Shown here: piece after piece, positions 25,775 to 40,261 of the stretch
Layout of the letters: each line of letters starts with the position of its first letter
How positions within the stretch are numbered: position 1 is the first letter of the stretch
Assembly (NCBI GenBank): GCA_015345905.1
Contig: JADDTR010000002.1
Span: 1,463,734 to 1,527,733, forward strand
DNA length: 64,000 bases
Origin: Aotearoamyces nothofagi
Lineage: Eukaryota; Ascomycota; Leotiomycetes; Leotiales; Tympanidaceae
Reading direction: 5' to 3'
Notes under the pieces: generated by a model
The model's database searches: none
Told to the model about the DNA's origin: nothing
What the model saw: the letters and a program-made list of their open reading frames with translations, nothing else
Program-made: the position numbers and the translations under genes

Positions 25775-27431
25775 ATGGAGGACCAGCAGAAGTCCTGGCT
25801 TCCCAAATTATTTCAGCGAAGTAATTCCAAGACCGATAGCACAACTCCAGACGAACACACAAGCCTGTTACCGAAGCCGGCAGATCTATTGAGCTCCAGT
25901 GGAGGCAGCGATGGAGCAGGCGAAACATACGAGTTAGAGGAAGGAGACTCATCAGGATCAAGAGAATGGATATCGGAGTTTATAATCTTGTTGAAGGGCT
26001 CTCTGCCTGTCATCCTCGCATACACACTTCAGAATTCTTTACAGACCATATCAGTGTTAGTTGTCGGACGCTTATCGCCCGAGGCTCTGGCTACTGCTGC
26101 CTTTTCATACATGTTTGCAATGTCAACAGCATGGCTGATTGCTCTGGGAGGGACAACCGCTCTCGATACTCTTGCCTCGTCTAGCTACACCGGTAGCAAA
26201 AATCCACACGATTTAGGAATACTCCTACAGCGAGGCTTCCTCATCTTGACAGTTTTTTATATACCTGTGGCTATTCTATGGCTGTGTTCTGCCCCAGTGT
26301 TCCGTCTGTTAGGACAGGAAGAATATATCTGCGTTAAGTCAGCACAATTTCTCAGTTGCTTAATTCCCGGTGGTCTAGGCTATATTTACTTTGAGGCGAT
26401 GAAGAAGTACCTTCAGGCACAAGGTTCGTTAAACCCCCATCAAGTATACATTCCTCACTGACAATTACACAGAAATCATGCGCCCCGGTACTTATGTCCT
26501 TCTGATTACCTCACCGATCAATGCTGGTCTCAATTACCTCTTTGTCTATACATTGAAACTCGGTCTTCTTGGCGCGCCTCTCGCAACTGGTATTTCCTAC
26601 TGGCTTTCGTTCATATTACTCGTCCTCTATGCTCGTTTTGTCCAGGGCTCACGCTGTTGGGGCGGCTGGTCTCGCGCTTGTCTCCGTAACAGTGGCACTT
26701 TTGCTCGTCTTGCCGTGCTGGGTGTCGTCCATGTAGGCACAGAATGGTGGGCGTTTGAAATAGTTGCTCTCGCTGCAGGTCGCCTCGGCACAATCCCTCT
26801 TGCAGCACAGTCGGTCATCATGACAACTGACCAGGTCATGAACACCATTCCCTTCGGTATCGGCGTTGCTACCTCTGCCCGTATAGGCAATCTTCTCGGC
26901 GCGAAGAACGCCAAGGGAGCAGCACGATCTGCGAATGTCGCAGCGTGGTTGAGTATGATTATGGGTGCAATTGTTTTAGCAGTGTTGATGGGCGTGAAGG
27001 ACTTCTATGCCAAGATCTTCAATGATGACATGGATGTCGTTCGCCTCACGGCAGAAGTGATGCCATACGTCGCACTATTCCAGATCGCCGATGGCCTGAA
27101 TGGAAGCTGCGGCGGCGCCTTGCGAGGCATGGGACGCCAGCATATTGGTGCAGCTGTGAACATTGTCAGCTATTACATGGGCGCACTTCCATTAGGCATC
27201 TGGCTTGCCTTTCATGGGTGGGGACTTGCAGGTCTATGGGTCGGCCAATGCATTGCACTATATCTTGTGGGTGCGATTGAATGGGTCATCGTTGCATGGA
27301 GTGACTGGGAATATCAGGTCAAGAAAGCATTCGAAAGAATGGACGATGATGAGAGACAGGAGATCGGAGAATCTCTACCTGAAGGACAAACGAGTGGCGG
27401 AATTGGCAGCTCTGAAGCGCCAGCTGTATAG
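25775..27431 (+). CDS. MATE-family multidrug/toxin efflux transporter
   Basis: Two exons (25775-26423, 26473-27431) with a 49-nt intron join in frame to 535 residues. The hydrophilic N-terminal 75 residues (MEDQQKSWLPKLFQRS, THTSLLPK-like segment) precede twelve membrane helices in two MatE halves. Landmarks are GSLPVILAYTLQNSLQTISV, LSPEALATAAFSYMFA, GTTALDTLASSSYTGS with the conserved LDTL, and in the second half QSVIMTTDQVMNTIPFGIGV and RIGNLLGAKNAKGA. Fungal relatives (ERC1-like) sit in the vacuolar or plasma membrane and export cationic drugs or metabolites using proton or sodium gradients; the substrate here is unknown. The upstream in-frame extension has no ATG. Confidence 0.95.
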
Positions 27432-28676: not shown

Positions 28677-29836
28677 TCAGATCTGGAGATTCAGGGTTTC
28701 GGTCTTGCCCTGCGCTTCACCACTCCTCAGCATCTTTTCCAAAAGTTCCAGGTCAGCCAACGCCTCCTCGGGACTCAGCCCAGGGTCTGGTTTGCCGGAG
28801 ATTATGGACTCGGCCCAAGCTTTCACCTCTTGCTTGACCCCGCTGCCTTCCTCGAAGCCGAAATCCCGCACCGTGACCTTCCCGTCCTTCTCCTCGCCCT
28901 CGCGAATAGTGACCTTGCTGCGCTCGGTAGTAACACTGCCATTCTCACATGCGACGGTGAACTCGCTGGCTGAGAGCGTGGTACCAAAGGAAACCGAAAA
29001 CGTTCCGGAGATGCCTGATTTCGTGATCCAGATCGAGTTCAGCGTATCGACGGGTGGTAGGTGTGGCTGGAGAAGCGCCGAGTATGCTGTGAGCGCAACT
29101 GGAACGTCTGTAGGGCCTAACAGAAGGCGCAGGCCAGCGGTAAAATGCACGCCGCCATCAAGCAGGAAGCCACCCTGGTGAGTCGGCGTCTTGCGCCAGT
29201 CCGTCTCTTGAAGAACATATCAGCACGCGATGGCCCATCCACGTGACGGCATGACAGACTCACCGATATATTTCCCTCCAGGCTTGACGAGCGACAGGAC
29301 GTTGACTCTGAATCCCAAGATGCGGCCCATGCGCTCGATCTCGTGCCTAGCATGTCTGAAGGATTGCAAGAAGCGGAAGTTCTCAGCTACCGCCCACGTG
29401 ACCTTGGTCTTGTCAATGCGCGTATTGTAGAAATTAACCAGGTCCTGCGCAAGTTTGAGATTCTCTGCAATCGGCTTCTCAGAGAGTACGTGTTTGCCTG
29501 CAGTCAGCGCAGCCTCAATGTACTCTGGTTGCTTCGTGATGGGCAGCGCAATGATGACTGCATGGATATCACTACGGAGGAGCAGGTCGTGATACGTCTT
29601 GCCAGCTCCGCCATCGTCAGAGTACAACTCTACGTTACTAATAGCTGCTACATCGCTCAGGGATTTGGCCGACTTCAGGGAACGGGAGTAGATGGCCTTG
29701 AGGGCTAGGTGCGAGGTTGCTTGTACGGCTGGCTGCTGGTTGTCAGTTTGCTGGAGACCCCTTGGGAAGCTGGGCTTACGAGATGCTGCTCTCTGGCAAA
29801 GATCCCGCCTCCAATAATGGCGACTCCAACGGACAT
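28677..29836 (-). CDS. Gfo/Idh/MocA-family NAD(P)-dependent oxidoreductase
   Basis: Three exons (29836-29780, 29732-29264, 29206-28677) join in frame to 351 residues. The short first exon gives the Rossmann start MSVGVAIIGGGIFAREQHL with GxGxxxA-like glycines; then come ADHAVIIALPI-like strand IHAVIIALPITKQPEY, the family lysine motif GKHVLSEKPIAENL at about residue 100, and the C-terminal domain with QGGFLLDGGVHFTAGLRLL. Members reduce or oxidise sugars, inositols or related cyclic alcohols; this fungal subgroup has no assigned substrate to my knowledge. The protein appears soluble and complete. The second intron boundary was fixed by joining KYI to ETDWRKTP. Confidence 0.9.
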
Positions 29837-30408
29837 TTTGAAATGCGATGCAAATGTTGGCTTTCGGGGATTAACTAATTGTGGAGAACATTAATCGTCA
29901 GATTATATGTGTTCTTGTACGGCAGACTAGACATGTGTAAAGTTTGGGATGCGGGTTTCCGTCTAGCGCGGTCCGTCGGAACGGTGCTTAGGGGTCGTTT
30001 TGGGGGTTCCTTTCCGCAATCAATATTATTATCCAGGCTTTGTAATAATGACGGTCTATAATCTCCAGGCTTACTGTAAGTATATGAACGGTTACGGTGG
30101 CACTCTCCAGAGTATGCTGTCCCGAATTCCCAAAATCTACGCCGAAGGCTACTGATAATCGGGCACGAGCGCAGCCAACGCCAATTATATTAAAATTGAA
30201 CGCAAGTAGCCCGCCCATAGCAAGCATAGAAGATTTTTTAATTATACTTCTTTTATTTGACTTTTGGATCTTGCTAATAGTACATGCATCTACATCATAT
30301 CTAACCATAAACGAACTCCATCAATGCCACTATCAACAACAGTCTTGACTGCCAGAGCTGCAAGAAATTCGCCTAAAACATCATCCATAATCCGAAAAGA
30401 AAAGGATC
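29837..30408. other. Intergenic between two minus-strand genes
   Basis: This is the promoter side of the oxidoreductase and the 3' side of the methyltransferase gene. Nothing else is recognised. Confidence 0.45.
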
Positions 30409-33400
30409 CTACTCCGAGTCACTGTCCTCCACAGCCTTGGTAGCTACAGTAGAGCCAAACTCGCCCTGCTCTCCATGTACAATAGGGATTAGGTCGAAGG
30501 TCGAAGGGACGAAAGTGGGGAAAGGTATGTATTTCGGAGCAGGAGCGACACCCTCAGCCAGAATCTTTCCGGACCTTGACTCCATCGTGTCAACATCAAT
30601 AGTCTTTAGCGTCAAGAAATGATAGACATGAACAGGCTTAGTCTGGCCGTATCGTCGAGCACGACCAATAGCCTGTGTCATAGCAGCATCATAAGTCTGC
30701 TGGCGATTAGTCAAATACGGCGAGACGAATATAATGTGATTCGCGTTGGTAAGATTACTACAGGTAGGTTAGTACAGCGGGCATAATGAGCGTTGAAAAA
30801 CTTACCTGCCAGCGGCAGAGGCATCGCCAATGTTCAGGATCAGAACCTTCTTCTTCAACTTCGGATCCGTCACTGTCTGAAATTCGGTGAGGTCCTTCGC
30901 CGCGTCACCACTCCTCGCAGACAGAGTCAAGTAGGAAAGGTTTTTGTTGTTGAATGCCTCCATGATTCTGTCGCCCAGATCAGAGAACTGTACGAAGAGA
31001 AGAATTTGCTCTTTGTTGTCAATCTTCCCGACAAGACGAACGACATCCTCAATCTTCTTTCCATAATGAACACCGTCTCGAGTACTATTGTCCTCAACCC
31101 CGAGTTCTGGCGCAGGAATTACTTGATAATTCTTATTGACGGCTTTGCACTCTGAGGTAGGGCATTGGTCATCTCGGACGAGGGTAGTACGGCAGTTACG
31201 GCAGATGATGTGGCCACACTGCGAGAGAACGAAGACTCCATCGGGGCGATGGCCGCTTTGATCGCAACTTGAACAGTGGCAGCCTTTTCCTAAGGGTTCA
31301 GAGTTGCGAAGCTTAGTGGAAAGGTCCTGGATGCTTCGAACGCTGTCAAAGAATCGGAGACCACGTTTACGGCTGACAAACTCGGTGGACAGCTTTCGAA
31401 GATCGTTCGTGACGTTTCGCAGCTCATAAATGAAGCCAGCGTGAGTAGACGGAAGAAGTCTGTGACAGTTTTGGTTCTTCCCGCTGTCAGAATCAGAGGC
31501 CTCATCAGACTCGAATCCATTCTTGCTCTTGTTACCCTTCTTAGCCTTGGCACCCTTTTTCTTGCCAGTTTCATACATCTTCGCTCGCTGGTCCGCAGTG
31601 GCGTAGAATTCAAAACCGTGGCTTGCCTTCCAGCCATCCTGAGCAACCTTGATCATTTTCTTCATCTCCAAAAGGGCGTCGTGGTCCCCGAAGTTATTGG
31701 ATCTAACCTGACTCTTCCAACTGACATAATTTGGACAGCCTGATCTGGATCTCTTGTCCAACCATTCAGCTTGCGTAAGCTTACGCTTAAAGTCTCTCAT
31801 TAAATCCTCAAGTTGCTCATTTCGGATATGAACGATACTATCGCAAGCCTTAGTTGCATTGCGTACTTTCTCCTCATCTAGTGGGTTGAGGGTGAAATGT
31901 GAAGCGGCCTTAAGAAGTGCCTCTTGTCCACTACCACTGTCTCCGAGCAGAGCGGCAATTCGACGAGTCCTATCATTGTCGCCATTATCCAATCCCTTCT
32001 TGATCCGGAACTCAGTGCCTGCAAGAAGCTGCTGTAGCTCCAAATAAATTGCCCTCTCAGCAGCAGGGAGGATGACTGAGATGAGATGTGTAGAGCCCGG
32101 GATGGCCTCAATGTCAGCGATGTTCTATTCATGTTAGTAAGGCTTCACCTAAAATTTCGGAAAATACATACCTGTCTAACAAATTGATTCAGAAATCGTT
32201 GTGCAAGTGCATGCCGATTCTCGTGCCATGCCGCAGACTGGCTGATCTTGAAAGATCTGAATTCTTCACTACCTACCAACTTTTTAGTAAATACTCGTGT
32301 CTAGGTGGGTGGAGAACTCACTAGTCATCTCCTTTGTCAAGGCCTTGAGGTTCTGAGCCTTGATGACTCCGGTTGTAAGATCAGTGACTCCAAGATTAAT
32401 TCCAAGGAATCCGGCGATAGTCTTAACATCGACAAAATCTTGTAAAGGAGGTGTAGCAGACAAGATCCACTTGAAATGAGACTTCAAGTTTGGGATTGTC
32501 AGAGCCTCCTTACCAGTTACATAGGTGTATTCATCTATGACGATTCGCTGGAACTTGAAGAGTTCGAGAAGCGGACAAGCCATTCTCGTCCAATGGAAGT
32601 TCTTATCCTTAGCCATCTTACCATAACCAAATTTGTCGAGACGTGGCTGTCGCTTCTCTACAGTCTTTATCTTCGCCTTAGCTCCCTTGGCGTTTCCGAC
32701 AGTTTCCTTTGACTTTTGGTATGCCTCACCACGAAGACGCTTCGAGGGTACATAGCTCTCGGCATCGGCTGCTTGCTTCTCACTCTCCGCAAGCCGAGCA
32801 TTTATCATGGCTTCAAGACCTCTCCCGCCACTCTTAAGCTCGTCGACGTGCTGAGAAAGATGAGTGAGAGTATCTAAGTACCATGCGCTATCTCCTCGAG
32901 GGCTACTCTTATCCGGTCGCTCAACTACACCTGCAAAGGTTGCTAGTCTGAGAAGATAATTGTCGTGTTCGCAAACTTTCCAAGAGGCGATGATTACATC
33001 GGCAGCTTGAATTCTGGCAATAGTCATCTTCTCCAAATCTGCAAAGGACTTGATGATTTCGACTCGGTAAGCTCGTGAAGAAGATAGGAACTTGCCAACC
33101 TCTCGAGCCCACTGAAGCGGAAGCTGGGAAGGGACTAATATGAGAGTAGCCTTGACATGAATATATCCAGGGACGTCAACCTGAGCAAGGGCACGATCTT
33201 GCTCACGTTTAGTGTCAATCAATGCTAACGTGGTGATAGTCTTTCCGTAACCGACTTGATCCGCCAGTACGCCGCCACGAATGGTGATAGGCTTTGTAGC
33301 TTGTCCCTCCGCCCGCCATCCAATTTGAGGAATGACAGCTTCTTCGATCTCCTGTTCGATGAATGGTTCAACAATATCAGCCTCTTGCTCGATCATCCAG

Positions 33401-36400
33401 CCTAGCGATCGCGACTGCTCCGGACGGAGGTTAAACAGGAACCCAGGAGGCTTGCCAGCAGGTGCGTCCTCGTTGTTGTTCTTGAGGGTGAATTCAGGCA
33501 GTGAGATTTTTGGTGGTACGAGATAATCAGTCACAAGACGCCATGAACAGGTGTAGTCGTGAATTTCAGATGTTCCATGCAACTTCGCAACTGCTCTATG
33601 AATGAGAGTTTGAGGATTCATCGCAATCTTCAGTTGGGTAAAGCCTTCGTCATCAATGCAAATCTGAGTCACTAAAGGTGGTGGTCTGTTCTTTATCGCA
33701 AGCTCGTAGGGGGCTGCGTCCTGAGCATCCTCGAATGGGACTTGCTTTCCATTATCGTCGAGCTTCCATTTGATCTTAGGAAGTGGAGGCGAACATGTCT
33801 CACAAGAACCGTCAGATGTAGCCGCCACGACGCGCCATTTGTCAAGGCCAGGTACTACATGAACTTTCTCGGTGAGCCACGCGAAGGCTTCGAAGAACTC
33901 CTTTTGATTGACCTGATCAATCTCAATCCAATGACCCTGTTGCCAACGAGAACGTTCGCCTTGAGGGAATTTTGCCTCGCAGCTGAGGATGAGATGAGTC
34001 TCGTTGCACGATGTATTAGAAGACGAAATCGTAAGATCAGGCAGTGCACGACTGAAGGTGCCACTCTCTGCAGCTCCGTGGGAATCGAAATGAGCACCAT
34101 CAAGATCAATCCATTGGCCGTCAACGTAGATGTCTACAGGTGGAAGGATTTTTGCCTCTTCTAACGTGACAAGCTTCTTCGAGCCATTAACAAAATATCC
34201 AGAGCATGTAGAACCCGCATAGCATGGCTCAATTCTCGGTGGTCGCCATGACGGATCGACGCGAGCAATTCTTGGTCGTAACTCTCCATAGTTGAGGCGT
34301 CGCTTGTCATAGGAAAAGATGAAGAAATCATGCTTGGGATCAGCAACACGATCAGGATCGAGGAACAAGAACAATGGAAGTTGAGATCCAGCAGTCTCTT
34401 TTTGAACATGAAGTGACCCAGATGCAGTGCCACAATTTTGCAACAAGTCATATGTGCCGCCGATGTCAACGCCGATGTGGTGGACCATTTCATCAGGGAC
34501 TGTTATAGAGTATTGCTTCCATACTTCCACATTTGTAAACTTTTCGATTCCTTGCAGATTCTCGAAGGAGCGAGTAAGAGCACCAACGCCGTTAATGGAA
34601 GCTTGGAACTTCTCAACCTTATGCAGCCAAAGTTGCCAAGGTCCGTCGGTAAGGTCAACTCCATTGGGCAGCATGCGGGCAACAGGATGCTGAAGAAGTT
34701 CACGGATGGGGCTGTTAACGGGCTCCTCGGGTGGGGGCTTCGCAAACAAACGCCACTCAGCTTGCTCAGAGTCTAGAACGAGCTCCATCCAGGCATGCTC
34801 AGAGTGATAGTACACGGTCCAGATTTCGGAACGCTTGACAGAGTGGAACCGAAGCTCAGAGGCAAGGGCCTTACGGATGGCCTCAACGGACACATCCCAA
34901 GCCTTCTGGTCCTTGTTATTGAAACTAAGACCACTCGCACGTCGAATTTGGGTGATGTCAGTGTCAACACCAGCGAGGATAACCTTCATGGGGAGGGCCT
35001 TCTTGATCAGCTCTTCGAATTGAGTCGGCGGGATGCGCTGGGCAACGACATCCACAGCAAGCGGGGTATACTTGTGTATTGGGAAGCCCCCACATTTGAT
35101 GCAAGTGGTATGGTTACAGAGCACACATTTTTGTAGTGGGTTTGCCGTAACAGCAACTCGGCCCTCACAAAAGCACAAGCGAGAGCTCTTTGATGCTGCG
35201 TCGAGAGCGGCAGCAACAGACATGCTCCCATGCCGGGCAAGATTCAAGGGGTTCGATTCAAGGCTATCCTCACCGGAAATATTAGTAACAGCAGGGGTGT
35301 TGTCTGTGTCCATTACACCATCGCTACCGGGACTGAGGGCCTTAAAGCCAGCAATCAATGCTGAAATAATCGCGGCACCGACAACTGTTGAAGTCATTGC
35401 ATTGCCTGCCAGATCCTGCAACTTCGCATTTGGCTCTCGAGTGAGCTGCAGCTTGTCGATAGGAAGGCCCTGTAAAGCAAGTACCTCGAGAGCAATCAAA
35501 GGGCCACCACGGGTTGTGCTAAAAGGAATGCCAGTTGGGGTCAGACAACCCGTGATACCGGTTTTGGCCACGTCTGTGACTCTATCAACATTTTGAGAGA
35601 GCTCCAAGATACGCCTAGTATACATGTTAGTCACATTACCTGATATCGGAGAAATTGAGCCTTACATCTTATATTGATGGTCAAAACCTCGTCGCAAATT
35701 CCGCAACCAAGCAATATCGATGGTGTCCCAAACACGCTCAACCTGGCCAATGGCCCAGTCACGCCACATGTAGTCTTGAGGCTTGCATGATCCACTGTTC
35801 TCCCAGTTCGTAATAGGTCGTTTCTGGCCAAAGCCAAGATCAGCACGGTAGTCTTGATGACGACCATGACAGCGGACCCAATCAACCTCACGCTCAGTAC
35901 GAGCTGACTTAGCAAGTTCTTCGCGACCTCGAATGATACGAGAATCATCCTCATCGAGCAGGAAAGCTTCGACGGAGCAGCTAGCAGGGCGCTCAAACTT
36001 CTTCATCTTCTCCATCCAAGTAGCCACGACAGCAGATGGGTTTTTGTGGGCGCTATTATCGACACAGATCATGTAGCCACGCATACGGGTGTGGGGAATG
36101 TAGTAATTTTTAGTGTCGACTCGAAGCATCTTTGCTGAATAGCCAATTTGGGGCATGTAGATTTTCTCAATGTCCACCCAAGGTGCACCACAGACGTTCT
36201 CCAGAATAATAAGCTTAGGACGATGGATCTTGGCGTACTCCCGCATAGCGAAGAAAGTGTCTCCAGATTCTCCGCCAGCTTCGAGTTTCTTCTTTTGGGT
36301 GTTCAAGCCAGAAAAGTCGACACAAGAGAACCCTGTGATTAGTATATCAGCTTCACCGGGGATCTTGGCTTTGGCACCATATGCAGTTGTTCTGTGTCCT

Positions 36401-37534
36401 ATTAGTAGCTGATATTGAAATAAATGTTTGTGTAATGAGAACATACGCATGCGTAGCACCTGGAATGTTGAGTTCCTTGATGTCACGAAAGATGATCGGT
36501 GGGGCAAAATTTCGCTCAATGTAGGCCTGCTTGAATGGAACAATCTCGGCACTGAATAAGTGTTCGATCTCAAGAGTCTTGTCATATTTTTTCAGAGCTA
36601 TGCAGATGTTAGTCGCGTGGCTCATAGATGGACTCTCCAGATGGCCTACCTTCACTAACAAGCTGCAAGGCGAGAATAGGACTCTCGGTACCTGAGCACA
36701 TAGTAGCTACCTTCAACTTGCGGCCGTTGAGTTGGTTCAAGAGGCGATCAAATCCGAGATCAAGTGCCTTAGCGGTCACATCCGCGAAAATCTCAGAGTT
36801 CTTTGAGATTGGCGGAAGGTCCTGAGCAATACCGATGCGGTAGTTGAAGTTATCAACGTATGTAGTAGCGATTGCTGGACCGGAAGTACGGACGGTTTCT
36901 TCTGCAATATCATCATCTTCAGCCTCAATGTCAGACTCAATGTCAGTCACTGTTTCAAGATTAGCAAAAACTTTTCTAAGATACTACTAGATAGATGAGA
37001 CTTGCCACCATTGTTCTGGCTAGCCGACGCCTTGACGCGCTTTGCAGGACGTACGGCGATATCAGAGTCGTCCGAAGGAGTCTCGGAGCTGTCACCAGAA
37101 GCCTCCTCCATCTCTGTATCGGTTGACTCAGCCGCCGACGAAGATGCATATGCAGACTCGGCAGTGTCCGAGCTATCAGACTTGAAGTCATCCTCATCGG
37201 TAGACTTGTGAACGTCCTTGAACTTTTTCTTTGCAGTTTTAGCTGCAGCTCTTGAGGTTTTACGCAAAGCAGGTTCAGCACTCGTAGCAACAGGAGTCTC
37301 GGGACTAGACTTTGAGGGCTGTGGAGTAGCTTTGGTTGGCATCTCAACGTTGCTGTTGCCATCTCCAAATTGATCAGATAGATCAGACAGATCAGACAGA
37401 TCAGAGCTAGTGGACTTGGTATGTAACGGGCGACGTGTGGGAAGAGGTGCATACTTCCTAGGTTTGGTAACTACGGCGTCACCTACCAGAGTAGGCAAAG
37501 ACTTCGCTTCTGAACTAGGTCTTTGTCTCTTCAT
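30409..37534 (-). CDS. DNMT5-type (Rad8-type) DNA methyltransferase-SNF2 ATPase fusion
   Basis: Eight exons (37534-37006, 36949-36650, 36597-36447, 36391-35666, 35614-32322, 32272-32172, 32124-30806, 30757-30409) close in frame to 2,255 residues. Residues 1-230 are acidic and disordered. The C5-cytosine methyltransferase (about 255-655) has ATMCSGTESP, the catalytic-cysteine loop ITGFSCVDFSGLN, ILENVCGAPW and QDLAGNAMTSTVVG. A zinc-finger-like segment (CFCEG, CVLCNHTTCIKCGG) lies near 695-725. The SNF2 ATPase carries Walker A ADQVGYGKTITT near 1360, a DEYT box near 1595 and ATPP. Between its lobes is a RING (CHCSSC to QCGHIICRNC and CP) near 1985-2035. The C lobe has IGRARRYGQTKPVHVYH. In Cryptococcus, Dnmt5 is an ATP-dependent maintenance CG methyltransferase; the same nuclear role is inferred. 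Intron 1 uses a GC donor at 37005, or a weaker GT three bases upstream. Confidence 0.94.
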
Positions 37535-38736
37535 GATTGACTTATCCGCAAAGAAGTCGGTAATGGAAGTTTGTTGCCTCTTTATTGGTATTAACGGAAC
37601 TGTTCAGTGTCGTTAGCCTAGTTTGAAAGTGGACAAAGTGAGCCAAGTGGCTACAAATTCGTGACATGAAGAGCCAGGTGAAACAATGAGGAATAATGCG
37701 TTAAAAGAGCTGATGTTTGTATGTGTGTATATGTGTGAAGGTGAAGTGAGGGAGACCTGAGCAGACAGCAGAAAATGGATTTTTAACTGGGCTGAGATGA
37801 TGAGATGTCTGAAACTGTTGCTAGACAGATACTATTGCGTAGTAAGTGCACTTTGCTACGTGATAATACTCAAGACTAATAACTTTAAAGTAGCCACTTG
37901 GCTAGGCTTTGCAGCATTCTCATGTCTCGAACACGTCAATATAGCTATTAAAGCTTCATAGACAACTTATCAAGAGCATGCACAGGGCCAATGATAGGAA
38001 GCTTAGTCTGGCAAAGGATTTTGGTGAAGGTAGATACACTTGTACCTATGTTGACAAAGAATCCAGCCCCACGACGCCGCTTTATGCTCCACTGATGAAG
38101 TGCTGATGGCATCACAAGTCTCGAGTGGAACTTGACAGAAATATAACACGTCATCATAGACTTACTTGAGGGAAATGAGCTATGTCTGCAAAAGCAGGAA
38201 AAGGGTGTAGGTGGTGACTTGTGGATCAGTGGCAGCTGTTTACCACAGTAGAGCGGCTTGGGTGTCAAACACCCAAGCGTTTCTTACAATGATTAACAAC
38301 AGTGTAAAAGATGCACAAACAGCTGTAAAGTGGTCATGCAATAAGAAGTGGTTGGTTGTTGGATGTGCAAAACTTTATGGGTAATGCAAAGGAAGGTGGT
38401 ACGTGTTGTTGTTTTGGGTGAAGGTATGTATGGGTGGGATGGGTTTTTATAGACAACAGCAGAGCCGGGAACTTTCCAGGCGCACGTTTAATCACCACCA
38501 GTTATCAGAACTTCCTAGGCAACAACACTGCCGGGAAAACGTGTGCGCTACACGTTTGGATCACCACCAGTGATTCAGTTTCAAAGATGCAACTAGCTCC
38601 TGCCACTTGATCTTCAAAAATGAATATCCCCTTCCAGTTCAAAAGCAGACTGCCTCCAGCCAACACTCGAAGACTTGAAAGACTTGAAAAGGGGCAAAAG
38701 CATCGTCAGGGAATTCCATATTCCTCCATTATCCAT
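37535..38736. other. Upstream region of the DNMT5-type gene
   Basis: No gene is supported. It is the promoter side of the methyltransferase gene and holds the direct repeat listed separately. TGTGTATATGTGTG-like low-complexity sequence lies near 37710-37735. Confidence 0.45.
38464..38577. repeat. Imperfect direct repeat, about 45 bp, two copies
   Basis: Copies at about 38464-38508 and 38530-38577 share GCCGGGAA at the start and CACGTTT..ATCACCACCAGT..CAG at the end, with variation between. They stand about 66 bases apart, roughly 0.9 kb upstream of the DNMT5-type start. Confidence 0.7.
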
Positions 38737-39321
38737 TTAAGAAGATGAGCAAAATACGAGATGCTTCTTTGTCAAAGCATTAAAGGGATTTGGTAGCCTA
38801 CCTTCAACCTTCTGCAGCCACATCCTTCCCTTTGGCATCCCTGGGACTGTATCTTCATCTTCCACTGATTGGTTTGTCTTCGCATTCGAGTTTAAAACAG
38901 TGCCTGAATCAACGTCTCTGGTTGTTTTTCTATTTAAGCTCCTGGCAACAGACTTGCCATTGGCGGGTTCCTTGCCTTTCTGCGCGGAGGACTTAGTATT
39001 TTGCTTGGCCGTTTTATTTTTCAGGGCCATGGTCCGTCGACCACCCAGTCTCAAGGGGTTCACAGATACCTGTACCAGAGGCCCCTCATCCAGCTCATCA
39101 TCTGCCTCGCTATGGGAGTCTCCTTCAGCTGGATGTTCCACAACAATGGCGTCCAGATCACTCGATTTCGCAGACCTTGCTGACTTAGCTAAAGATATGG
39201 CAGCTGCCTTAGCTGAATTGGATGTACTGCGAGCACTTCGCTGAGTGGTTCCAATGTCTCCGCCATCTCCTTCCGAGTCCGACGATACGAGGTCATTGAG
39301 CCTGGAGTTCGATGGGCCCAT
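38737..39321 (-). CDS. Hypothetical Ser/Lys/Asp-rich protein
   Basis: A single open frame of 194 codons runs from an ATG at 39321. The protein is almost entirely low-complexity: an acidic N-terminus (SSDSEGDGGDIG), a Ser/Ala/Lys tract (SLAKSARSAKSSD), an acidic patch (SEADDELDEG), a basic tract (LKNKTAKQNTKSSAQKGKE) and the only ordered-looking piece, GMPKGRMWLQKVEG. A GTAGGC donor follows that piece, so the last dozen codons may be intron and a further exon may exist. The composition suggests a nuclear chromatin-associated protein, but I recognise no family. It is on the same strand as, and next upstream of, the DNMT5-type gene. Confidence 0.45.
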   Translation of the reverse strand: MGPSNSRLNDLVSSDSEGDGGDIGTTQRSARSTSNSAKAAAISLAKSARSAKSSDLDAIVVEHPAEGDSHSEADDELDEGPLVQVSVNPLRLGGRRTMALKNKTAKQNTKSSAQKGKEPANGKSVARSLNRKTTRDVDSGTVLNSNAKTNQSVEDEDTVPGMPKGRMWLQKVEGRLPNPFNALTKKHLVFCSSS

Positions 39322-40261
39322 AGTAGCAGTGGTAGCTCAACACCTGAGCAACGGGCAACAGTAGTCTTCGATATATAGGAGTTGAGAGGCCGGTAATGAG
39401 CGAAACATAAAGGCAGCAATGGAGAGGATCAATGGGATGCAATAGGTATCATATCAAATGAGCGACTATGAAGCGAGTTAGCAATTGCTATACAGTAAGT
39501 ACTACACGTCTCCAATCCCCCGTGAGACTCTCAGTCAAAGTGAGAGCAGTTTGAGTAAGTTCCAATTCATACTTACATCCTTTCGATTACAGATATATAT
39601 CGAGCCCCGCGAAAAACAACAACACACAACGTTAAGCAAGGCAAAAGCCTAATGATGGTACACAACACCAGAGTCGACTACGTAGATTTACTATACACCA
39701 GCCCAGCACGCGTGCTTGATCCCAGTGAAGCGCGTCCCGCACGGGCCATATACGCGTAAACGTAAATTGGTTCCATCCGTTAGCTTTCAATTACTACCAG
39801 GCGAATTATCGCCTGAGGCGACAAGGCATCAATCCATGTGCAATTGAGGGGTCACGTGGGGGTGGGGAGGTTTCAAGGAATGCTGAAGGTTAGGGCGCCA
39901 AGTGTCGAGGAGCTGTAGCAGAGCTGGCTACCTAGTCCAGCTTCAGCGGCAGGAGAGGGAGTGGAATGGTTTCGGCGCTGATATTTGTGATGCTCTACCA
40001 TAATTGCTGTCTTAGCTAGCAGCATGGATGCATTCAGTCCTAATTATGACATGTCTGCCGGTTCAAAGACCGAAGTCCAAATATTTACAGCTTAGGGTAA
40101 TCACTGCCTCGATATCCAGAAATCTTGGCGAGCCGCGAGTGTACTCGTTCTCCCAATACGCGAGAGCATCGCGAACCTCGTGAGCCTCGTTTTGAACACA
40201 AGACCTCCTTGGCCAATGGTGAATCCTTTTTACTATATATTCCACGATCATTCAAGCAGCT
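39322..40261. other. Divergent intergenic region
   Basis: This is the shared upstream region of the Ser/Lys-rich hypothetical gene and the 2H phosphodiesterase gene. No other gene or notable repeat is seen. Confidence 0.45.

Follow-up and report, generated by a model that had tools for sequence, protein, structure and literature searches.

A conserved PIP box in the predicted N-terminal tail of Aotearoamyces nothofagi DNMT5 suggests docking of a fungal maintenance methylase on PCNA

The DNMT5 gene of Aotearoamyces nothofagi lies at 30409-39321 on the minus strand of the window (the whole 64,000-nt stretch of contig JADDTR010000002.1 that was analysed) and comprises nine exons that form one open frame of 2449 aa, with all introns GT-AG. 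Residues 183-190 of its predicted product, QTSITDFF (37550..37573, minus strand), match the canonical PCNA-interacting (PIP) pattern Q-x-x-[ILM]-x-x-[FY][FY], and Q-x-x-h-x-x-F-F supplies the residues through which known PIP boxes contact PCNA. We think it likely, judging from sequence, that this enzyme, whose catalytic motifs are intact, is a CG-maintenance methylase that docks on PCNA by its N-terminal PIP box and works coupled to replication. Its membership of the DNMT5 family is known; what is new is a putative PCNA tag that is widespread in the family and was not observed in the model enzyme.

A PIP box kept in divergent N-terminal tails

Three homolog searches (best 120 of 638, 776 and 609 hits, respectively) gave 199 sequences, a sample that is biased to near relatives because only the best 120 per search were taken and in whose named rows no Sordariomycete, Tremellomycete or alga was recognised. 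Among the 200 rows with A. nothofagi included, a strict PIP box stood ahead of the methyltransferase in 132 and was missing from 44, the remaining rows being N-termini shorter than 90 aa without the motif (n = 21) or sequences that were not anchored (n = 3). When N-termini of at least 90 aa were considered, the strict box was present in 130 of 174 (A. nothofagi included) against 0.105 expected from composition shuffles, and the rest of the protein yielded a single match in 245,628 aa (best 120 of 638 homologs plus A. nothofagi, with P0006, which was not anchored, left out of the count). A genome sample of 228 open frames (60,783 aa) held two matches, one of them the DNMT5 QTSITDFF itself. The box is kept within tails that otherwise differ, and 130/174 against 0.1 expected across distant lineages implies selection on the residues that bind PCNA. 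The sequence signal behind this reading is very strong, and from it we infer that QTSITDFF binds PCNA and may, through this contact, couple methylation to replication.

Taxonomic groups, labelled by hand from source names, differed in how often they carried the strict box: 104 of the 140 remaining rows, which are mostly Basidiomycota, 5 of 9 chytrids, 1 of 2 for Saitoella and Limtongia, 0 of 8 Eurotiomycetes, and 22 of 41 other Pezizomycotina (16 without, 3 unreadable). Among the rows recognised by name, the Pezizales had it in 6 of 8, those without (Tuber P0029 and Pyronema P0107) having a short or late start, and the Onygenales in 0 of 3. Several basidiomycete and chytrid negatives carry a degenerate form (QSTLNSFI, QSSMDMFV), and in some negatives the annotated start appears to lie too far downstream, as in Tuber P0029, whose sequence opens with MDNYF. 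The motif of Ascobolus immersus RN42 (P0097) reads QASITSFF. On the 70-row methyltransferase tree the motif required 13 changes, with the Eurotiomycetes as one group, which indicates that losses (or missed starts) are frequent.

Pseudogymnoascus DNMT5s (P0001-P0003), the closest named relatives among the matches listed (50-52% identity, N-terminus colinear), carry the boxes QSVISDFF, QFAISDFF and QSAISDFF, with SD at positions 5-6 where A. nothofagi has TD. The box of p21 (CDKN1A), QTSMTDFY, nearly equals QTSITDFF, although the two proteins are unrelated. A PIP degron of the CRL4-Cdt2 type needs TD together with Lys or Arg at +4; this was considered and rejected for A. nothofagi, whose box has the TD but is followed by Ser at +4. 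Across the 132 PIP sequences, 2 have TD, 63 have a basic +4 residue and none has both.

The enzyme with a solved mechanism, Cryptococcus neoformans DNMT5, reportedly carries out ATP-dependent maintenance of CG methylation and appears to be without a PIP box, since none was found in its residues 43-290 as read from alignments; it has a chromodomain-like stretch at about residues 43-75, whereas the A. nothofagi protein has a PIP box and no chromodomain. An ordinary Cryptococcus-like DNMT5 could also be considered, one brought to its sites by an SRA protein resembling UHRF1 and by readers of chromatin, with no functional tie to PCNA, in which the PIP-like stretch is passive or serves another purpose. 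Maintenance of CG methylation by C. neoformans with no PIP in residues 43-290 and the presence of two SRA genes in the A. nothofagi genome both accord with this, but a box found in 130/174 N-termini of distant lineages against 0.1 expected implies selection, and we judge a passive or other-purpose stretch unlikely.

Domains and family membership

The DNMT5 architecture proposed in the earlier note was borne out by several lines of evidence. In a 2280-aa draft of the protein, Pfam recognised SNF2 (6.8e-16, in two stretches), C5 methylase (PF00145, 1.8e-15) and Helicase_C (9.8e-06), all above cut-offs; a RING narrowly missed its threshold (3.5e-06; 27.3 vs 27.9 bits). The best PDB sequence match was C. 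neoformans DNMT5 (7r76, whose deposited name is DNA repair protein Rad8; E = 0, 1258 bits, two stretches), which has the same chain of methyltransferase, zinc finger, SNF2 and embedded RING and shares a long alignment and the catalytic motifs with A. nothofagi. Cys544, ENV, TRxR, GNAM, GYGKT, DE, the RING Cys/His and the zinc-finger ligands are intact in the alignment, and the residues of the catalytic Cys, ENV, TRxR, Walker A/B, RING and zinc finger are nearly invariant in 197 aligned sequences (A. nothofagi included). SNF2 motif III reads SAT in A. nothofagi and SGT in the other aligned rows (100% after rounding).

On the minus strand, the C5-methyltransferase domain, delimited by Pfam and alignment from motif I to motif X, spans 35389..36701: motif I (MCSGTESP) is in exon 3 (36650..36949), followed by exon 4 (36447..36597), exon 5 (35666..36391) with the catalytic Cys544 and the ENV and TRxR motifs, and exon 6 (32322..35614) with motif X, the zinc finger and the SNF2 N-lobe. 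The zinc finger (residues 910-937; 35092..35175) has six Cys columns of 99-100% identity, and the SNF2 Walker A, LADQVGYGKTIT, was placed by alignment at 33232..33267. Exon 7 (32172..32272) leads to exon 8 (30806..32124), which holds the embedded RING finger (31147..31275, by Pfam and alignment), and exon 9 (30409..30757) encodes the end of the helicase C lobe, including QAIGRARRYGQ.

In a 70-row methyltransferase tree, A. nothofagi fell within fungal DNMT5, and the Pseudogymnoascus group was its sister (SH-aLRT 100). The SNF2 ATPase and embedded RING share one chain with the methylase, as in DNMT5; SNF2-RING proteins of the Rad8/Rad5 kind without a methyltransferase do not fit, the methylase domain being present here. 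DNMT1 is without the SNF2/RING half, Pfam found no BAH or RFD domain (a DNMT1 trait) in the A. nothofagi DNMT5, and the protein is not a DNMT1 member. Assignment to the DNMT5 family is secure.

At E ≤ 1 Pfam had no match to any family, the chromodomain included, within residues 1-461, and we conclude on this basis that the chromodomain is missing; the absence noted earlier for a shorter N-terminus holds for the full one, with 0 families in these 461 aa. The empty result is compatible with a disordered, accessible tail. The chromodomain is a trait of some DNMT5 members only and does not define the family: precomputed PF00385 matches occurred only in five chytrid proteins among the matches listed in the three homolog searches, and three chytrid proteins (P0047, P0135 and P0142) combine a strict PIP box with a chromodomain from the precomputed matches. 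By its published description, Verticillium dahliae Dnmt5 is likewise an ascomycete DNMT5 without the N-terminal chromo domain of Cryptococcus (relevant passages of PMC8091789).

Methylation genes and CpG depletion in the genome

The 25.5-Mb assembly encodes further methylases. One is DIM-2-like: it scores 703 bits against 9bap, a fungal methylase of solved structure whose entry reads DNA cytosine methyltransferase and which is presumably Neurospora DIM-2 (the companion entries 9baq and 9baz also hold HP1). Another we take to be RID-like from its motif, and a third is a DNMT1-like BAH methylase. Two SRA genes are candidate hemimethyl-CG readers: in the single frame scanned per gene, SRA was the sole Pfam match, and a RING elsewhere in these genes is possible. 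One gene has a zf-4CXXC_R1 match, and PCNA is also encoded.

CpG content was assessed in 264 kb, consisting of the window and 20 chosen stretches (10 interior, 5 from contig ends and 5 from small contigs). In 500-bp blocks of 44-54% GC (156 kb) the CpG observed/expected ratio was 0.85, compared with 0.35 in blocks below 36% GC (31 kb), where ACG stood at 0.14, CpA at 0.70 and TpA at 1.30. Of the CpN dinucleotides in these AT-rich blocks, CpG showed the strongest depletion, a pattern that fits the decay of methyl-CG or a CG-preferring RIP.

These data bear on two broader claims of the earlier note. The patchy occurrence of DNMT5 in ascomycetes stands insofar as some, such as Neurospora, have none. 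It does not stand for the group as a whole, most ascomycetes encoding both Dim2 and Dnmt5 according to the pertinent passages of Kramer et al. (PMC8091789). The presumption that this genome has CG methylation to maintain gained indirect support from the CpG depletion, the two SRA genes, the zf-4CXXC_R1 gene and the CG-methylated Pseudogymnoascus destructans (passages of PMC7862722), a congener of the closest named relatives, and A. nothofagi may methylate CG. Its automatic derivation from the presence of DNMT5 is opposed by V. dahliae, where deletion of Dnmt5 barely changed the methylome and the enzyme contributes little (passages of PMC8091789).

The same passages, in which the V. dahliae authors suggest Dnmt5 roles beyond methylation, also favour a Rad8/Rad5-like protein, that is, a PCNA-linked translocase or ubiquitin ligase for which methylation is minor and DIM-2 writes most 5mC, as does the presence of the additional DIM-2-like, RID-like and DNMT1-like genes. 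However, the methyltransferase catalytic motifs are intact and the depletion in sampled AT-rich DNA is strong and specific to CpG, so we regard a mainly Rad8/Rad5-like role as distinctly improbable.

Possible role of PCNA docking

In the mechanism that we favour, a PCNA-docked maintenance methylase, the long N-terminal tail would present the PIP box, through which DNMT5 would be held behind the replication fork by PCNA. The SNF2 motor would then engage DNA with hemimethylated CG sites at the expense of ATP, and the methyltransferase would copy the mark to the new strand, such that in this lineage PCNA docking would replace, or add to, the chromodomain targeting used in Cryptococcus. The occurrence of the box in Ascomycota, Basidiomycota and chytrids and of PCNA and two SRA genes in the genome speaks for this mechanism; against it stand C. 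neoformans, which maintains CG methylation with no PIP in residues 43-290, the 44 of 200 rows whose readable N-termini are without the strict motif, and the barely altered methylome after Dnmt5 deletion in V. dahliae (passages of PMC8091789). Chances seem about even for a wider proposal, in which the majority of DNMT5s in fungi would be maintenance methylases tethered to PCNA and coupled to replication, the PIP box would date far back in fungal history, Cryptococcus, the basis of the replication-independent model, would be the exception, and loss of the box, as in the Eurotiomycetes, cost efficient CG maintenance.

Animal DNMT1, a maintenance methylase, has an N-terminal PIP box, and the A. 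nothofagi enzyme would be alike in this respect if the PCNA reading holds. A truly conserved box would place DNMT1 and DNMT5, two different maintenance methylases, on the same clamp, and it offers a residue-level test of DNMT5 targeting. The relevant passages of a 2026 review (PMC13297926) describe DNMT5 as acting independently of the replication apparatus, and how it locates hemimethylated CG sites as only partly resolved. A literature search combining DNMT5 with PIP box or PCNA-interacting returned no report, though the main DNMT5 papers may mention one, and a PIP box in DNMT5 is absent from the relevant passages of PMC13297926, PMC10538959 and PMC11343034.

The box is also a possible reason for differing CG methylation among fungi with the same methyltransferase set. 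Passages of Nai et al. (PMC7862722) list Tuber melanosporum and P. destructans as CG-methylated (CG-preferring) ascomycetes, and give about 32% CG methylation for T. melanosporum and 0.4% for Uncinocarpus reesii, species with an identical methyltransferase count row, in which the counted enzymes would be RID, DIM-2 and DNMT5. Set against the PIP box, this is a two-species contrast in which Tuber's own motif is ambiguous, and it is not a test.

Gene model and start site

The earlier note had described a complete gene of eight exons and close to 2,255 codons. Translated from ATG 37534, the frame runs for 2254 codons to its stop at 30409 across seven short GT-AG introns of 47-59 nt, in agreement with the exon structure given there, but the start was placed too late, which hid the PIP box, the most interesting part. 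On the upstream side of ATG 37534 no stop interrupts the frame as far as 37603, and the residues read KRQQTSITDFF; a splice acceptor with a CTAAC branch-like site lies at 37600, which makes exon 2 an open frame of 37009..37599 (minus strand). Further upstream, an ORF at 39336-38740 is similar to the N-terminal part of Pseudogymnoascus DNMT5. When 39321-38802 is spliced to 37599 the phase is preserved, and the resulting product, VPGMPKGRMWLQKVEVPLIPIKRQQTSITDFFADK, lines up with VPGFPEGRRWLHSVRVPMRTPNKQSVISDFFKPH. The first 203 residues aligned with Pseudogymnoascus P0001-P0003 at 12-14 SD above shuffles, the next best N-terminal alignment reaching 5 SD (among 120 homologs, best 120 of 638), and the exon 1/exon 2 junction is colinear with the single-chain Pseudogymnoascus proteins. 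The model of nine exons and 2449 aa was adopted because exon 39321-38802 joins in phase and aligns with relatives; the start codon and intron 1 are predictions from homology and splice signals.

Intron 1 (37600..38801, minus strand; 1202 nt) is about 20 times longer than the others. It is single copy in the genome, and Rfam gave no match in it when 30000-40000 was scanned up to E = 0.1; a repeat or known RNA gene was ruled out on these grounds. The intron holds a TATA-like stretch and an ATG at 37667, an unproven alternative start. An alternative first exon of 13 nt (37667-37655, MSRIF...) was rejected, as its GTAGCC donor is weak and relatives are colinear with the longer model. The length of the interval and its TATA-like stretch could suggest that exon 1 is a separate upstream gene and that the enzyme starts at ATG 37667 or 37534 from a promoter inside these 1.2 kb, but this is very improbable, since single-chain Pseudogymnoascus proteins align with the joined N-terminus over its whole length, junction included, and the phases match. 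Even with a start at 37667 the PIP box would be retained.

Two ACGCGT (MCB-like) sites (39708..39757) precede the start codon by about 0.4 kb and are suggestive only: at least two such sites occurred in 28 of 2451 overlapping 1-kb windows of the genome sample, and the PCNA locus has one ACGCGT, located beyond the PCNA reading frames rather than in front of them, so the case for cell-cycle promoter elements at DNMT5 is weak.

Exon 1 (38802..39321, minus strand), missed in the first reading and recognised by its Pseudogymnoascus alignment, starts MGPSNSRLNDLVSSDSEGD and ends GRMWLQKV-E. Near its beginning is LVSSDSE (39271..39291, minus strand), a putative, weak SUMO-interaction-like motif; a stronger form, such as LLVLSSDSE, occurs in several lichen-fungus relatives, and in A. 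nothofagi the motif is a lead only. The exon further encodes an acidic EADDE motif (39094..39108, minus strand), common to Pseudogymnoascus and some lichen-fungus DNMT5s, and, at its end, GRMWLQKV (38806..38829, minus strand), which represents a conserved GRxW(L/F)xxV motif.

Methylase and SRA-domain genes of the genome

The 25.5-Mb genome carries four C5-methylase genes, namely DNMT1-like, DIM-2-like, RID-like and DNMT5, of which the DNMT1-like gene lies on contig C12 at 678-680 kb (fetched stretches L001/L006) and includes two BAH stretches. Two separate SRA-domain genes were located on contigs C11 (stretch L007) and C19 (stretch L008), and SRA was the sole domain detected in their scanned frames; both are candidate readers of hemimethylated CG. 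Among nine scanned frames neighbouring the DNMT5 gene, none matched a methylation-related family, and the matches included a MATE transporter (26433-27428), a Gfo/Idh/MocA oxidoreductase (29223-29870) and a cytochrome P450 (45109-46254).

In base composition, four AT-rich stretches, L028, L030 and L031 (small contigs C48, C53 and C55, respectively) together with L025, exhibited CpG observed/expected ratios of 0.39-0.70 and an excess of TpA, and constitute a decayed compartment. CpG loss exceeded CpA loss in this compartment, whereas classical RIP is CpA-biased.

N-terminus and residue peculiarities of DNMT5

A weak SUMO-interaction-like motif was found at the DNMT5 N-terminus (39271-39291, minus strand), and a motif of this kind, a hydrophobic run followed by SSDSE or a near form, opens several Pezizomycotina homologs (P0010, P0012, P0013, P0017 and P0019). 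Srs2 recognizes SUMO-PCNA, and by analogy it is conceivable that DNMT5s with this motif do so as well. Within the putative PCNA-binding PIP box (residues 183-190 of the 2449-aa model), TD at positions 5-6 occurs in only one other (P0181) of the 132 DNMT5 sequences with a strict PIP box, and SNF2 motif III (residue 1816) reads SAT instead of the SGT of the other aligned DNMT5s.

Intron 1 (37600-38801, minus strand) spans 1202 nt, compared to 47-59 nt for the other introns of the gene. It contains a promoter-like stretch, with TATAAAA near 38450, and a candidate alternative start at 37667 with a weak donor; initiation there would retain the PIP box and lose the remaining N-terminus.
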